Shown here: positions 2,214-57,289 of the stretch, piece after piece
Numbering within the stretch: position 1 is the first letter of the stretch
Layout: each line of letters opens with the position of its first letter
Source of the DNA: Neoarius graeffei
Taxonomy: Eukaryota > Chordata > Actinopteri > Siluriformes > Ariidae
NCBI RefSeq assembly: GCF_027579695.1
Contig: NC_083571.1
Location: forward strand, 72,549,279-72,613,278
DNA length: 64,000 nucleotides
Direction: 5' to 3'
Notes under the pieces: model-generated
Databases searched by the model: none
The model's input: the letters and a program-made list of their open reading frames with translations, nothing else
Told to the model about the DNA's origin: nothing
Translations under genes and position numbers: made by a program

Positions 2214-5063
2214 TTAGAGCCAGCAGTGCAATGCCACTGAAAGCAGAAGTGATAGAAGAGACATCCATGTCATGGAAAGTGAGCTGGCAATCACTGGTGG
2301 CATGGAATTACCTGCAAAATATAAACATATACATGAAAGTAAATGTACAAAAATACATATTTAAACCTAAAAATAAACAAGAAATTTGAGTTTGGATTAC
2401 TTACTAAGCACTAATTAATATATAACACAATAATATCTTCGCAAGTTGATACTGACCAAGAGTCTGGCTGACACTGATGGAGATTAGATCAATAGTGAAG
2501 TTCAAGCTGGCAAGCCCTTTGACAAGAGTGTCTTTCACTTGGGTCTCAGTGACACTGCCACCAGGACCGAAAGACAGAGTGCTATTTGTCAAAATAGAAC
2601 CATTTCCTGAAATTACACAAAGAGATGCAGGTGAAAATTCAACCATAAATCAACAAAGAAAAACATTGAGTCATCTCCTCCTTCTTACTTGAAATTTAGG
2701 ATTTGCATGAGGAGGAAGTTTTGAAAGGCTTTCTTGTACAATGGTTCAACCTAAAAGAAATTAGAAAAAGATTAAGTGAGTTAACAAAAGTGTCAAATAC
2801 ATTGATGAACAGGTCTATCACATTTAGTTCTAAATGTAGTTAAAGGTAATAAATAATGAAGTAATTGAAACATTTAAGAAATGTTCAAATTCATATATAA
2901 TTGGCATGCCCATTGAATTGGACGTCATAATGTTCAGAAATTAGAGAAAATGAACTGACATATTGAGTGACTTCAAAAATTAGACATGTTTTGATTTACT
3001 TCTTGACAGAAAGATGACATTTGAACTATGATGAATTCTTCGAGTTGTCTGATATGGCAGCAGAATTGCATCTTGTTTAAAAGAATCAGATAAATTGTAA
3101 ATGGAAGCATTATCAATAATACATACCCCATTACGGATTTGTTTAGACTTTGTTGCAAACTGTGGAGAGCTTTTATTGGCCAGGGCTGCATCAAAGGTTT
3201 CGTTAATGCTGAAGAACAAGTTGAAAATTGCAGTTACGATTGGAGGCGAAGTGGTGGTTGCTGAAGTGGTACTTGGAGCTGTACTCAGGGTTCAAGTGGT
3301 GGTTGCTGAAGTGGTGCTTGAAGTTGTACTCGGGGATGAAGTGGTGGTTCCTGAAGTGGTGCTTGGAGTTGTATTTGGTGTTAGAATGTCGCTTGGAGTT
3401 GTACTTGGGGTTGAAGTGGTGGTTGCGGAAGTGGTGCTTGGAGTTGTACTCGGAGTTGGAGTGGTGGTTCCTGAAGTGGTGCTTGGAGTTGTACTTGGGG
3501 TTGGAGTGGTGGTTCCTGAAATGGCGCTTGGAGTTGTACTCGGGGTTGGAGTGGTGGTTGCTGAAGTGGTGCTTGAAGTTGTACTCGGGGCTGAAGTGGT
3601 GGTTTCTGAAGTGGTGCTTGGAGTTGTATTTGGTGTTACAATGGTGCTTGGAGTTGTACTTGGGGTTGAAGTGGTGCTTGGAGTTGTGGTTCCTGAAGTG
3701 GTGCTTGGAGTTGTACTTGGGGTTGAAGTGGTGGTTGCGGAAGTGGTGCTTGGAGTTGTGGTTCCTGAAGTGGTGCTTGGAGTTGTACTTGGGGTTGAAG
3801 TGGTGGTTGCTGAAGTGGTGCTTGGAGTTGTACTCGGGGTTGGAGTGGTGGTTGCGGAAGTGGTGCTTGGAGTTGTACTCGGAGTTGGAGTGGTGTTTCC
3901 TGAAGTGGTGCTTGGAGTTGTACTTGGGGTTGGAGTGGTGGTTCCTGAAATGGCGCTTGGAGTTGTACTCGGGGTTGGAGTGGTGGTTCCTGAAATGGCG
4001 CTTGGAGTTGTACTCGGGGTTGGAGTGGTAGTTGCTGAAGTGGTGCTTGAAGTTGTACTCGGGGCTGAAGTGGTGGTTTCTGAAGTGGTGCTTGGAGTTG
4101 TATTTGGTGTTACAATGGTGCTTGGAGTTGTACTTGGGGTTGAAGTGGTGGTTGCGGAAGTGGTGCTTGGAGTTGTGGTTCCTGAAGTGGTGCTTGGAGT
4201 TGTACTTGGGGTTGAAGTGGTGGTTGCTGAAGTGGTGCTTGGAGTTGTACTCGGGGTTGGAGTGGTGGTTCCTGAAGTGGTGCTTGGAGTTGTACTTGGG
4301 GTTGAAGTGGTGGTTGCTGAAGTGGTGCTTGGAGTTGTACTCGGGGTTGGAGTGGTGGTTCCTGAAGTGGTGCTTGGAGTTGTACTTGGGGTTGAAGTGG
4401 TGGTTGCTGAAGTGGTGCTTGGAGTTGTGGTTCCTGAAGTGGTGCTTGGAGTTGTACTTGGGGTTGAAATGGTGGTTGCTGAAATGGTGCTTGGAGTTGT
4501 ACTCAGGATTGTCATCTGTGCTGATGCATCTGTGGCTGTCAGACAGGAAAGACAAAGTTTGATTGCCTATATCCAGCAAACAAGAAAATGTACCAGCCAC
4601 AAAGTGGTGTTCACTTTAAAATCCGGCTGTAACATGAGAGTTCTCCATGAACAAAAACACAATTGGAAGCTCATTCATACTCTTACAAAGTATGGAAATG
4701 AAATCTGGATCACGCCTGCCAAAAACCTTTTTTCTCACTCTCATATCGTGTTTGCTATGCAGTGTGTAATATTAAAATTGTATAATATATTAAAATAAAG
4801 GGTACAAATCCAATTTCTGTGTAGATTCAATATAATACATTTCCAGAGGTCTGTATGTTGCATGACTGCAATTCACACATTGTCTTGCTAAATAATACAG
4901 CTTCTTGAGAGAGAGGACAGCATATTTATTGCCTCTGTGCATTATATTTGAGCAGGATTATGTAAGGACGACAAAAACTGAGATAGAATTTGGATCCTCA
5001 GGGATAACATAGGAAACACTTACCAATCAGACACAAAATGGCCACTATAAGCCTCCAGTCCAT
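2214..5063 (-). CDS. Mucin-like SEA-domain membrane protein, five exons, probably disrupted
   Basis: Exons read by splice signals are: 5063-5024 (MDWRLIVAILCLI, signal peptide, donor ggtaag); 4535-3127 (acceptor ctgacag; about 28 Ser/Thr/Pro repeats, then the start of a SEA domain with SINETFDAALANKSS; donor gtatgt); 2750-2689 (VEPLYKKAFQNFLLMQILNF, core SEA helix; donor gtaag); 2606-2457 (NGSILTNSTLSFGPG, SEA strand region with a G|S autocleavage-like site; N-glycosylation motifs); 2311-2214 (hydrophobic MTWMSLLSLLLSVAL then stop, like a GPI-anchor signal or short membrane segment). Family knowledge: this layout is that of cell-surface mucins whose SEA domain self-cleaves. Odd points: an in-frame TGA at 3294-3292 where sister repeats have TCA, and exon 3 ends with two spare bases while exon 4 needs one, a one-base frame error just before the cleavage site. 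It may be a pseudogene, a null allele or contain sequencing errors. Confidence 0.8.
3246..4512 (-). repeat. 45-bp tandem repeat encoding the mucin PTS domain
   Basis: About 28 units of 45 bp, each coding on the minus strand for a 15-residue variant of TTPTPSTTPSTTSG. Subtypes differ by single codons (S/P, G/A, V) and occur in blocks that repeat, for example around 3560-3680 and 4030-4150, showing unequal exchange. Because 45 is divisible by 3 and the unit has few stops, several frames on both strands stay open for hundreds of codons; only the Thr/Ser/Pro frame joins the exon-1 signal peptide and the SEA domain. Confidence 0.9.
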
Positions 5064-19260: not shown

Positions 19261-19479
19261 GTTCTCTCTATCCTCCTGTGAGTCACTGAAAGACTTTGGC
19301 CCTGTCCACACGGCAACGGATTCAGGTGACTCCGATACAATTGCTTATCGTTTAGGCCTGGCGTCCACACGGCACCGGCGTTTTGGGTGCCCAAAACGCA
19401 ATCTTTTTGAGAACGGGTTCCGGAGTGGAAAGATCTGGCAACGTTGCCGTTGTGAAGTCGTCTGGATGAGTAAATTGCA

Positions 19480-20180
19480 CATACATATATTCTCACTCTC
19501 ACATGCATACATTCTCACCCTCACATACATACAATCTCCTCTCACATACATACATTCTCCTCTCACATACATACATTCTCACTCTCACATACGTACATTC
19601 TCCTCTCATATACATATATTCTCACTCTCACATACGTACATTCTCCTCTCATATACATATATTCTCCTCTCACATACGTATATTCTCCTCTCACATACGT
19701 ACATTGTCCTCTCACATGCGTACATTGTCCTCTCACATGCATACATTCTCCTCTCACATGCATACATTCTCCTCCCACATACACACATTCTCCTCTCACA
19801 TGCATATATTCTCCTCTTACATATGTATATTCTCCTCTCACCGACATCTATTGTCCTCTACGTAGCATGCATACATTCTCCTCTCACATGCATATATTCT
19901 CACTCTCACATACGTATATTCTCCTCTCACATACATATATTCTCACTCTCACATGCATAAATTGTCCTCTCACATACATATATTCTCCTCTCACATACAT
20001 ATATTCTCACTCTCACATGCATAAATTGTCTTCTCACATATGTATATTCTCCTCTCACATGCGTACATTCTCCTCCCACATGCGTACATTCTCCTCCCAC
20101 ATGCGTACATTCTCCTCCCACATGCGTACATTCTCCTCTCACATACATATATTCTCCTCTCACATACATATATTCTCACT
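19480..20180 (+). repeat. ~19-bp minisatellite, about 36 copies
   Basis: The unit is close to 'ttctcctctcacatacata', with length variants of 18-20 bp (cactctcac / cctctcac) and groups of identical variants (four 'cccacatgcgtacattct' in a row near 20070-20140). The reading frames through it on both strands are repeat artefacts. Confidence 0.93.
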
Positions 20181-20185
20181 CTCGC

Positions 20186-20395
20186 ATTCCGGCTTGCTCC
20201 CCCTCAAATTAAGCCCTGTACAGGTAAATAGCTGCCGGAGCCAACGTCCGAGGTTCTGGAGCGCGCTCCGGCTTGCTCCGGCTTCCCACAGGGCTTAATT
20301 TGAGGGGGAGCAAGCCGGAGCGCACTCCAGAACCTCGGACGTTGGCTCCAGCAGCTATTTACACTGGATCCGGTGTAAATAGCTGCCGGATCATA
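20186..20395 (+). repeat. Hairpin-forming inverted repeat
   Basis: 'ccggcttgctccccctcaaa' near 20188 recurs inverted near 20307, and 'gccggagccaacgtccgagg' near 20233 recurs inverted near 20345. The arms are about 90 bp. It resembles a MITE foldback, with no protein. Confidence 0.7.
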
Positions 20396-53335: not shown

Positions 53336-53811
53336 TTAGCAGAAAGCATCTGAAAACAGCTTGGTCTTTAACCTAGATTTGAAGCTGCCAACAGCAGGAG
53401 CATTTTTAATGTCCTCTGGCAGTTGGTTCCATAGCTGTACTGCATAGTAGCTAAAAGCTGCTTCACCACACTTTGTTTTAACAACAGGTTTTACCAGTAA
53501 ATTTTTCTGTTGCGATCTGGTAGATCTGATTGGGTTAGACCGCTGCAACATATCAGAGAGGTAATTGGGCCCTGTACCATTCAGAGATTTGTACACCAGC
53601 AGCAATGCTTTAAAGTCAATTTTGTAGCTTACTGGAAGCCAGTGAAGGGACCTTAGAATTGGAGTAATGTGCTCTGTTCTTTCTGTTCGTGTGACAACCC
53701 TAGCCGCTGCATTTTGAACCAGCTGAAGTTGTTTGATGGTCTTTTTTGGCAGGCCTGTGAAAAGGCCATTGCAGTAATCAACCCTACTAGAGATGAAGGC
53801 ATGTATAGACC
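53336..53811 (-). pseudogene. L2 ORF2 C-terminal segment, copy 2
   Basis: Reads FISSRVDYCNGLFTGLPKKT, IKQLQLVQNAAARVVTRTER then after a short out-of-frame part LLVYKSLNGTGPNYLSDMLQ and CGEAAFSYYAVQLWNQLPED to a stop at 53336 after FSDAFC. This is the standard C-terminus of L2/CR1 ORF2 proteins. Confidence 0.9.
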
Positions 53812-53885
53812 CTTTTCACTCACGTGACCTTTGTAAGCGCGACCGCGATTTTGGACATGAAGAAATAATGGTTTATGGCACAGAC

Positions 53886-56418
53886 GGGTGATTCTATAAT
53901 TTGGGGTACATTTCGCTGTAAGAAAAAAATAAAAAACACATTGTTTTTCAGTGAATCAACCAGTCTTACAAGTTAGCATAATCCTTCAGGGTAACATATT
54001 CAGTTGTTGCAAAGCTTAATCATTAACCATTTTTTCTATTTTTAATGAAATAAAATGTTTTTCCTTCTGAGCTTGTCAACTAAGTTACGGACAAACTGAT
54101 ATGATTTCAATCATTTGGCGGAATCTTACACTTAAAGTAAAATTAGATTTGAAGACATATTTAGTCTTTTCTGCCAGATATACAATATTTAAAAAAAAAA
54201 TTTATTCATTAAAATTTCCCCCAGTATGTAAGTAATTCAACTACAACTGTTATTAGGACCATGATTTTTTTCATTTACAAAAATGCCATACCAGTCATTT
54301 TCACAATTTAAAGAAAAGGCTGCCAAAGTTCACAACTGGTCACATCTATACCAATCATCAAGTTATGTTATAGACCTCATTTTCATTCTTTTAACTTGAC
54401 AAATGTAAGTGTAACTTAGTTGGCGATGGAGGTAATGCGGTTGACACAAGTAACTTAGTTGACAGGACACATTAAACAACCAGTACCATGTTATTTTAAG
54501 GTAGTATGAAATTTAATGAAAGATCATTTAAGTAAATTCATAGGCAAGGTGATGGATAAAACAGTGACAAGGAAATAAGCAACAGTAACCATGTAACTGT
54601 AACTCAGTTACAGTAAAATATCAGTAGTAATCATCAGTAGAAATCATTCATGTAGCCAAGCAGAATCAAAGGCAATAAAGTTGATTCACATACATATAAA
54701 AGCAGTGAGAGGGCAACAAATAACAATCGATGAACTGCCCTGCACTGTATTCAGTTAATACAGTAGAACAGAATTACATTGAAATATAATGAAATATAAC
54801 TGTAGTATATGAAACATTAAACTGATCGATACATTCCATATAAACCTCACTAGGACCTTTTACAAACCTGACCATATTTCTCTGTCAATTTCAACATGGC
54901 GTGAATTCACTGCCTTTGGAGGAGGAATCATTCTCAACACATCCTCAAACAGGTACCATAGCACATCCTCTCTGAGTGGCCAGAAGAAACGGTTTACTCC
55001 AATGTTACTCATGCACTTCACCTGTACATGGGTTTCCATGATATCCTGAATTATCCCAGGGTAAATGTCCCCTTCGTATCTTACAACACACCATTCTCCA
55101 ATTAGATCAGGACCCCAAGGAATTTCACATGCTGCTGCTTTGTGTGTTTGAGGGACTAATGTTGCTGTGCTCAACATCAAAGGCAAAGTCATGTGTGCCA
55201 TCACATCTGCATTCAAAACTTTGCCTAGTGGTACAAGGGCAACTGACATCCTGATACTGAAGTTTCATCTTTCTTTCCCTGCTTTCCTTCTGCGCCTTCC
55301 TCCAATAGGCCCTCTTGCTTCTCTTCTCTCTCTCACTCATCATTCCAACAGTTTTCACCTTTCTCTGTGCCCTTAGCCTGTGTCATGCCTGTCTTTGCTT
55401 CTCCAAGTATGCTGCCCTTCTTGCTGGATCAGCATCTCTTCGAGCCCTGTATTTGTGCTGTTTTTCAGCTGCTGACACCTATTTCAAATAGATTTTAAAA
55501 TACTAAATTAACTTGTATAGTGAAAAAGTAAGATGCACTCTATTAACTACAGTATTCATTGAGATAGGCAGACTGATAATGACAGTGATGTAGTGAAAAT
55601 TACTGATGTCAGAGAGCACTGGAGTTGCCTGTCAACTAAGTTACCCAGTCTGTGTAACTTAGTTGACAGGTAACTTAGTTGACAATTTCCATGTTTTGTC
55701 TCATAACTTCCTTAGCTAATGTAGCATTGCTAAGCACATGGCATTTTCTTAAAGAGGTTAACAGCTTTTTTAATCAGGTAAGTTAATTAAAATATTGAAA
55801 CATCAAAACCCATGATTATATGAGTAACTTAGTTGACGCTTAATTAATATACTCCCAGACCATATGTAATTTTAGATCAAATATTGAAGAAAATTAGAGG
55901 AGACTCACCATGATGCATTCAAAATGCCCGCCAGAGAGGAAGGCGTCACCACACAGGGCTGGTCACATGGTGTTGGAGCAAACCATTTTTGGGTTTCAGC
56001 GAGGGAGTCTTGTTAGTAACTTAGTTGACACAAATTTTGCGGACAGCGGTAAAATTAATATTTTAAGTATTAAGATGTTAAAATGTAATATGAAATTATT
56101 ATTTTCTCCTAGTACTTAACACCCTTAAGAACATTATAAAATAATATTATTGACTTTGATGTTTTTTAATGCTTTATTTTGAACACAAAATAGTGAAACA
56201 GGAAATCGGACATGGAAAAAATGAAAACTCTAAGAATATCATGATAGATTTTAATTACTAATAATCAAAAAATATGTTAAATGTTTTTATAGTTAAATTG
56301 CATGATGTGTATACATGCTTAAAATGTGAAATTCCAGAGGAAAAAAAGATTTTTAATAGTCAGTGACATCAGTAAACATCAGCGGACATGGAATGTACCC
56401 CAAATTATAGAATCGCCC
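53886..56418 (-). mobile_element. DNA transposon with 14-bp TAACTTAGTTGACA word array
   Basis: Inverted ends GGGTGATTCTATAATTTGGG at 53886 and its complement (one change) ending 56418; AGAC flanks both sides (4 bp). The word TAACTTAGTTGACA or a one-base variant occurs forward at 54412, 54451, 55655, 55671, 55825, 56017 and reverse at 54074, 55630. A decayed minus-strand ORF lies at 55490-54860. Confidence 0.82.
54860..55490 (-). pseudogene. Transposon ORF of the word-array element, frameshifted
   Basis: The N-terminal part (55480-55330) reads, across a stop, YRARRDADPARRAAYLEK and MSEREKRSKRAYWRKAQKES, a strongly basic helical region I recall from fish transposon-derived ORFs. A different frame then gives GPDLIGEWCVVRYEGDIYPG and VNRFFWPLREDVLWYLFEDV, ending at 54860 with EIDREIWSGL. 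The last part looks like a compact beta-rich C-terminal domain. A catalytic core between the two is missing or unrecognised. Superfamily not determined. Confidence 0.55.
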
Positions 56419-57289
56419 AGACCCTTTCGGTTCTCGCTCATCTAGCTGCTACAATGACTGCTTAGACTGCAACAATAATACCTAACACACATTTAAGTAT
56501 CCGTCGTAAAGACGTGAAACTCGTCGAGTGACGAGTGTGTTCATTGATAAGCTAACACAATCTAAAAGTAGACATACCATCACACTGCCCTGGCGCTGTG
56601 TACAGTTTACCTTCTATGGTTTGTGCACTCACTATTTGCCATTACTTTCTCCAACCCAGTGTTCGAACTATGCCGATATTTTCAGGGGGTCCCTTTTTTT
56701 CCCTTGGGGGGGGGGGTGCTTGCGCTGGTCTCAGAGCGCGGATCTCCAAACACATGAGAAGCCTCTCTTACGCACATATCACACGGACTCCACACCTCCA
56801 CACACGCATCGCGTCTGAAGTCATAACTCATCAGGGGAAATCGTGCCCGCATTGGCATGTTCAAAAAACAACCTCGCGACAACAGTGATACCACACGCAA
56901 GAAAAAAAAAACAGTCAGGCTACTCAACACATCTGATCCACAGCAGCACCAAAGCATCACTGGAAATCATGTCAACAACCAATCTTCCATTTCAACACGC
57001 GTCAACAAACAAATGGCACCACAAACATGAACGAATCGGTCAGGCTACCGATTCCAAACCCACAGCAGATGAATAATATCTTACCTTAAAGCAGAATCGA
57101 CCACAAAGGAAGTCTGTTGGCACACTTCCTTTCTACTAGTTTGTGTCCCCAACCTGGCAGCAGCAGTCGTTGTCATATTGGTTTATTTTATCTTTGATGT
57201 AAACACAACACTTCGGATATGCAAATACTTCCCGTTACACACGATTGCTATGTCAATAAACATCATTTTGCCAATATTTTAGAGACCAT

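Follow-up and report, generated by a model that had tools for sequence, protein, structure and literature searches.

A family-specific word at kept spacing in related transposon families of one genome, probably docking sites for an element-encoded protein

Transposons with a repeated binding motif near their ends are already known. In CACTA (En/Spm) elements a subterminal motif that differs between families is bound by an element-encoded protein, TNPA, and one soybean element has four repeats on the left and 24 on the right, according to the available part of that report (PMC2613891). The available sections on the VANDAL transposons of Arabidopsis describe a short, mainly non-coding and family-specific motif that evolves synchronously with the VANC protein (PMC5735166, PMC10398659). 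Galileo, of the P-element superfamily, has further THAP sites 561-577 and 701-718 bp inside its ends, for which the accessible text proposes a complex synaptic structure (PMC3688188). In the hAT elements Hermes and Ac, an N-terminal domain is described in the excerpt at hand as binding several short repeats scattered over the ends (PMC10368747).

The element described here lies in a 64,000-nucleotide stretch of DNA, the whole of which we call the window. New, as far as the literature searched shows, is that about eight related families in one genome have a common plan of about nine sites with the word at those sites rewritten. As in CACTA elements, the motif is family-specific, occurs in both orientations and lies inside both ends, and a binder is predicted. 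However, CACTA elements end in CACTA and make a 3-bp duplication, whereas the ends here read GGG(C/T)GATTC with a 4-bp duplication, which places them outside that group; and against the 4 plus 24 repeats of the soybean element stand about nine sites in a layout common to the families. The likeness to VANDAL is a family-specific, non-coding motif that evolves in concert. VANC targets, in the available sections, form tandem arrays that are dynamic and share one orientation, but the sites here are dispersed, in both orientations and at kept spacing. A separate VANC-like gene was not seen in these elements, which have a short protein made of transposase parts (N+C, below). Galileo likewise has extra sites hundreds of base pairs inside its ends, but those lie within long inverted repeats and are bound by THAP domains, whereas the present sites lie outside the inverted repeats and the N-terminal regions gave no Pfam match above cut-off, to THAP or to any other domain, unlike P elements. 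The scatter of short repeats over the ends also recalls hAT elements, with an N-terminal binder here predicted; Hermes, in the excerpt at hand, has AAGT motifs near its tips, whereas the 15-bp words here lie about 190-790 bp inside, and no BED domain matched above cut-off in the proteins here, unlike hAT.

Literature searches returned nothing for the word GTAACTTAGTTGACA, and four short peptides taken from the loci matched a single unrelated paper. Among the papers listed for coevolution, subterminal repeats, VANC and Sola, none seems from its title and the start of its abstract to describe such a system, and the available parts of PMC5735166, PMC10398659, PMC2613891, PMC3688188, PMC10368747, PMC5753468 and PMC10294476 contain no shared layout with a family-changing word.

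The whole element, for which no strand is assigned, is 2533 bp long (53886-56418). Its ends, GGGTGATTCTATAATTTGGGGTACATT at 53886-53912 (plus strand) and GGGCGATTCTATAATTTGGGGTACATT at 56392-56418 (minus strand), were identified from the sequence and by a genome search, and form inverted repeats of 27 bp that are 96% complementary. This bears out a preliminary description of the locus, which had noted clear inverted ends and AGAC flanks; the flanks were read from the sequence on both sides, at 53882-53885 and 56419-56422. Among eleven copies with both ends visible, the window's included, eight have identical 4-bp flanks. A 4-bp target site duplication is that of the Sola superfamily, and flanks of this length were also found at the C24, C13 and L168 elements. 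The target of piggyBac and Kolobok is TTAA, and both were rejected as candidates since the duplications are AGAC, TGTT, ATAA, TCAT, AGAA and others. Segments of the family's other copies are mostly 94-99% identical to the window copy, with one at 91% in L125. The window element belongs to a young DNA transposon family and is non-autonomous.

The preliminary description had reported a 14-bp word at eight positions in this element. All eight are real in a scan of the window, and the repeated unit is 15 bp long, with a leading G before the 14-mer in 8/8 sites. Six 14-mers are exact, at 54074 and 55630 on the minus strand and at 54451, 55655, 55671 and 56017 on the plus strand; those at 55825 (one mismatch, ..GACG) and 54412 (two, ..GGCG) are imperfect. 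As 15-bp units, D1 (GTAACTTAGTTGACA, 54074-54088, minus) starts at element base 189 and is followed on the plus strand by D2 (GTAACTTAGTTGGCG, 54411-54425, family consensus ..GACG), by a ninth, degenerate site D2b (GTAATGCGGTTGACA, 54432-54446; L141 also has a middle word of three) and by D3 (54450-54464). Across the coding region, U1 (55630-55644, minus) forms an inverted pair with U2 (55654-55668, plus), which agrees with the reverse/forward arrangement reported earlier at 55630-55684. U3 (55670-55684), U4 (..GACG, 55824-55838) and U5 (56016-56030) are all on the plus strand, 16 bp after U2, 154 bp after U3 and 192 bp after U4, respectively, with U5 402 bp from the right end. Allowing up to two mismatches over the 64 kb, the count is 8 against 0.81 expected, with all eight matches inside the element, and none of 100 shuffles reached 8 (maximum 4), which is the comparison that the preliminary description had called for. 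The whole genome (2.34 Gb) holds 123 occurrences of the 14-mer and 29 of the reversed string, and among the 100 places listed of the 123 most cluster as copies of the window element. Within the window element the words are confined to non-coding parts.

To look beyond the word itself, loci were chosen by protein similarity. Searches with a 206-aa frame of the window family and a 226-aa relative gave at least 166 and at least 164 matches, and 21 loci were taken by protein alone (L138, L139, L141-L155 and L168-L171); L136 and L137, not chosen by protein alone, were excluded. An array was taken to be three or more copies of one family-specific word in a common order; 17 of the 21 have one and two have it in part, L139 with three partly degenerate D words and L142 with two words in an incomplete locus sequence. 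These scans found no word array in L146 and L155. The 21 loci represent about ten families, eight of them with words. GTAAC-TTAGT-TGACA is the word of the window family and L147; GTAAC-ACAGT-TGACA that of L138, L144 and L145 (also L137); GTAAC-ACCAA-TGACA that of L148, L150 and L152-L154; GTAAC-ACCAG-TGACA that of L149, L151 and L169-L171; GTAAC-AGGAC-TGAGT that of L141 and L142; and GTAAC-AGGAC-TGACA that of L139. ATAAC-AGAGT-TGACA, rather degenerate in L143, is also found in L158, L160, L161 and L163 of a high-copy family. L168 has ACGACAGGGTGGACA, found de novo by repeated 8-mers rather than by the GTAAC pattern, and GTAAC-ATAGT-TGACA belongs to L132-L135 and L140, a group found through the word.

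When one mismatch or none is allowed, GTAAC-N5-TGACA occurs at 91 sites in the 21 loci against 5.9 expected, with a maximum of 11 in 60 shuffles. At this stringency L139, L141, L142, L143, L146, L155 and L168 hold no more sites than shuffled sequence; the words of L139, L141, L142 and L143 were read at two or more mismatches and that of L168 by its own de novo word. Genome-wide the L168-family word is found 61 times against 8 for its reversed control, and many of its clusters coincide with L168-family protein matches. In one alignment (A1) the words are 81-92% identical to the window and the remainder 49-65%, a comparison that is partly biased, as L132-L135 and L140 came in through the word, L137 through word and protein, and only L138 through protein alone. 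A set of eight loci included L159, with one degenerate word, and L162, with none. Derivatives of the AGAGT family shorter than 1 kb (L160, L161) retain two or three U words but lack D words altogether, and therefore the D array may be dispensable for movement.

The sites of an element change together. In a comparison of six elements, identity over the five central bases is 0.89 within an element, compared with 0.32 between elements at the same site, a contrast reached in 0 of 5000 shuffles; the U4 of the C13 element entered this permutation test one base out of register. Words more than 1 kb apart on opposite strands have the same centre. The ten bases to the left of the word are 0.29 identical within an element and 0.27 when shuffled (100 of 5000 shuffles reach the observed value), a slight excess that arises in part because U2 and U3 adjoin, and the ten bases to the right are at 26% in both (1242 of 5000). 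Homogeneity is thus about at background at the word's edge, which argues against the spread of longer segments. The simplest cause of the concerted change would be selection on the word itself. With a shared plan and a rewritten word, the families amount to a natural experiment on how the specificity of a DNA-binding protein changes when many sites must follow.

The sites also keep their distances. Six elements are complete from end to end (the window's, C24, C13, L168, L169 and L170), representing four families, with C13, L169 and L170 in one. D1 starts at base 189 or 190 from the left end in 6/6, and U3 and U5 are 346-350 bp apart, again in 6/6. In the four complete elements in which U4 was seen, U3-U4 measures 154, 154, 156 and 156 bp and U4-U5 192, 194, 194 and 191 bp. 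U5 is 400-417 bp from the right end in complete elements. Looser are D1-D2 (337-362), D2-D3 (19-40), U1-U2 (24-35) and U2-U3 (15-25). Outside this set, loci with the ACAGT word have a U3-U4 distance of 155 in four cases and a U4-U5 distance of 188-196, and U3-U5 is 357 in L141.

Spacer length is retained where spacer sequence is almost lost. Among the window, C24, C13 and L168 elements, the lengths of successive spacers are 158-159, 139-141, 176-179 and 356-373 bp, and their sequences align at 0.45-0.54 identity, with shuffled controls at 0.45-0.51. Only the pair C24 and C13 falls outside this range, with two segments at 0.60 and 0.61; for the U4-U5 spacer, identity is 0.04-0.08 higher than the shuffled mean in four of six pairs. 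To our knowledge, it is unusual for non-coding DNA to retain its length over 140-180 bp while its sequence is nearly free, and this would suggest nucleosomes or a rigid complex. The preliminary description had proposed asking if position is kept while spacers diverge. Between families this is what we find; within the window family, words and spacers behave alike.

For that family, 37 genome matches to the inverted end with no or one mismatch were grouped into 21 loci, all read at least partly. The TTAGT word array is present, whole or in part, in 20 of the 21, the window included (only in part in L122 and L123), and the 21st, L158, has AGAGT words instead. The family exists as a 2.5-kb form with an open N+C frame, as a 1.7-kb form, and as copies with inserted retroelements. 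The 1.7-kb form, most copies of which have one deletion in common, has lost nearly all coding sequence and retained both word arrays. Drift was counted over 20 copies (L115-L131, L147, L156 and L157) together with the window. Departures from the consensus number 19 in 2423 word positions (0.78%) and 286 in 31836 positions of other non-coding DNA (0.90%), or 10 in 1721 and 181 in 22659 without CpG-type sites. The earlier suggestion that selection kept the words while the reading frame decayed therefore finds no support in this family, as words drift about as fast as spacers. Loss at the neutral rate had been named as evidence against functional sites, and drift is indeed about neutral, but this has little power against function because divergence from the consensus is below 1% in this family and drift in dead copies is unconstrained. 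Four loci (L117, L116, L135 and L171) hold inserted elements with long open frames that were classed by look as Ty3-type (1139 aa), LINE-type (1072 aa) and Tc1-type (361 and 358 aa).

The coding sequence of the window element is a decayed short gene on the minus strand (54863-55478) with one in-frame stop and a frameshift, in which a basic N-terminal region is fused to a C-terminal domain (N+C). The decay described earlier thus holds for the window copy, but not for all copies of the family; three copies, on C1, C13 and C17, have an open 206-aa frame without stops, with an intact version at G000:C1:128871027-128871641. A putative intron 1 on the minus strand (55479-55908), bounded by ATG-GTGAGT and AG-GTGTCAGCA and suggested by the sequence and the frame start at 55478, would hold U1-U4, and U5 is located upstream of it. 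In L141, an N-terminal exon is accompanied by a 679-aa frame with the motifs HVDFSENY, YSDGPCTQY and ASHGKGAPDG, which we take to be those of an RNase H-like transposase core. The short proteins consist of the basic N-terminal region and the C-terminal domain of this L141-type transposase, joined. The complete C24, C13, L168 and L169 elements (2.2-2.4 kb) encode only the N+C short protein and lack the catalytic core. The proteins of L141 and L142 gave neither a Pfam match nor a PDB relative above cut-off; weaker Pfam and solved-structure matches fell below cut-off and were judged chance. AlphaFold2 reached a pLDDT of only 37.8 for the C-terminal ORF, and a guessed fold for it was dropped. For the N+C short ORFs, dN/dS is 0.34-0.80 within families, which could reflect selection on the short protein or on the full transposase, and between families synonymous differences are near saturation.

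Compact core-less N+C elements were seen at L148, L149, L151, L152, L153, L154, L168 and L169, with the window remnant (54863-55478) of the same kind. Their N+C junctions vary between families by eye, and in one family the indels between four copies preserve the frame; the protein search itself favours in-frame fusions. L170 (C8:57160300-57165500) and L171 (C12:44031800-44037000) are related to the L151 family and carry its word, L170 also its inverted ends; both have the core and C-terminal domain in broken frames. The N-terminal exon was not seen in these two loci, so that their coding content is the complement of that of the short elements. On contig C2 of G000, near-identical short-ORF elements form a local cluster at about 117.8-126.3 Mb with no fewer than nine members, of which eight are full length and one is partial.

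Taken together, we consider that the array probably serves to dock a DNA-binding protein encoded by the element itself, likely in assembling the element's ends, and put the probability of this at roughly two in three. The preliminary description had likewise proposed sites for the element's own protein, and this proposal is well supported by the comparison with related families, which have a largely similar layout and have each changed their own word in concert. The arrays, their concerted change and the kept spacing over nearly free spacers are observed; which protein binds, and what binding does, we infer. The likeliest binder would be the basic N-terminal region common to the full transposase, as in L141, and the short N+C protein. 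Protein and word would co-evolve, with the half-sites GTAAC and TGA.. mostly kept and the 5-bp centre shifting across a family's sites together. With sites at nearly fixed, nucleosome-scale distances from both inverted ends and from each other, the most likely role would be in transposition, with a defined protein-DNA complex formed on both ends; the element's gene may also be regulated as a secondary effect, given U1-U4 in the putative intron and U5 upstream. An end-assembly role is favoured because the distance to the ends is kept, the sites lie on both sides of the gene, and they are retained in gene-poor copies.

Those same positions could instead reflect control of chromatin, with the element's protein binding its own non-coding DNA to counter host silencing or to direct its transcription, as VANC does, and the ends assembled by other contacts. 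The words of the window are found only in non-coding DNA, including the putative intron and the region upstream of it, and complete elements encode only N+C, and therefore a VANC-like regulatory or anti-silencing role is possible; VANC motifs, in the available sections, are likewise non-coding, dense, family-specific and synchronously evolving. However, VANC targets there expand and contract as tandem repeats, whereas several of the distances from the inverted ends vary here by no more than a few bases, as would be expected of geometry more than of dosage, and copies with almost no gene retain the array. We regard this alternative as unlikely, if the most serious of those weighed. If the element instead exploited a transcription factor of the host, conserved short sites close to a putative promoter and within an intron would also resemble one another in a single family, but coexisting families in one genome have different words at the same positions, which a single host factor does not easily explain, and the sites flank the gene on both sides at a kept distance from the ends; a host factor is thus very improbable. 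The near-neutral drift in the window family would fit words without function, ancestral duplicates kept alike by recent descent or gene conversion. Against this, homogeneity drops to about background at the word's edge, opposite-strand words more than 1 kb apart have the same centre, and the layout persists across families whose spacer similarity is mostly gone, so that we find it scarcely credible.

Returning to docking sites that assemble the ends, an extension of this reading, tentative and on balance doubtful, is that the array acts as a molecular ruler. It would be a chromatin-scale scaffold of nearly base-exact spacing (among complete elements, 189-190, 154-156, 191-194 and about 400 bp) in which the word may be rewritten provided that the protein and all its sites change jointly, and the core-less N+C proteins might be dedicated scaffold or anti-silencing factors, a counterpart of VANC in transposons unrelated to VANDAL.

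No relatives of the protein or the element were found in the viral contigs, phages and plasmids searched. The bare 15-mer matches 84 stretches of viral contigs, with one match each among the 80 listed, and these were rejected as relatives and judged chance. Beside the element, a minus-strand frame at window positions 53336-53605 is near-identical by eye to a LINE-like end in L139 (2981-2667); the element therefore adjoins a LINE remnant. The window also holds two long minisatellites, one at 3248-4428 with units of 45/135 bp and another at 19478-20187 with a unit of 21 bp.
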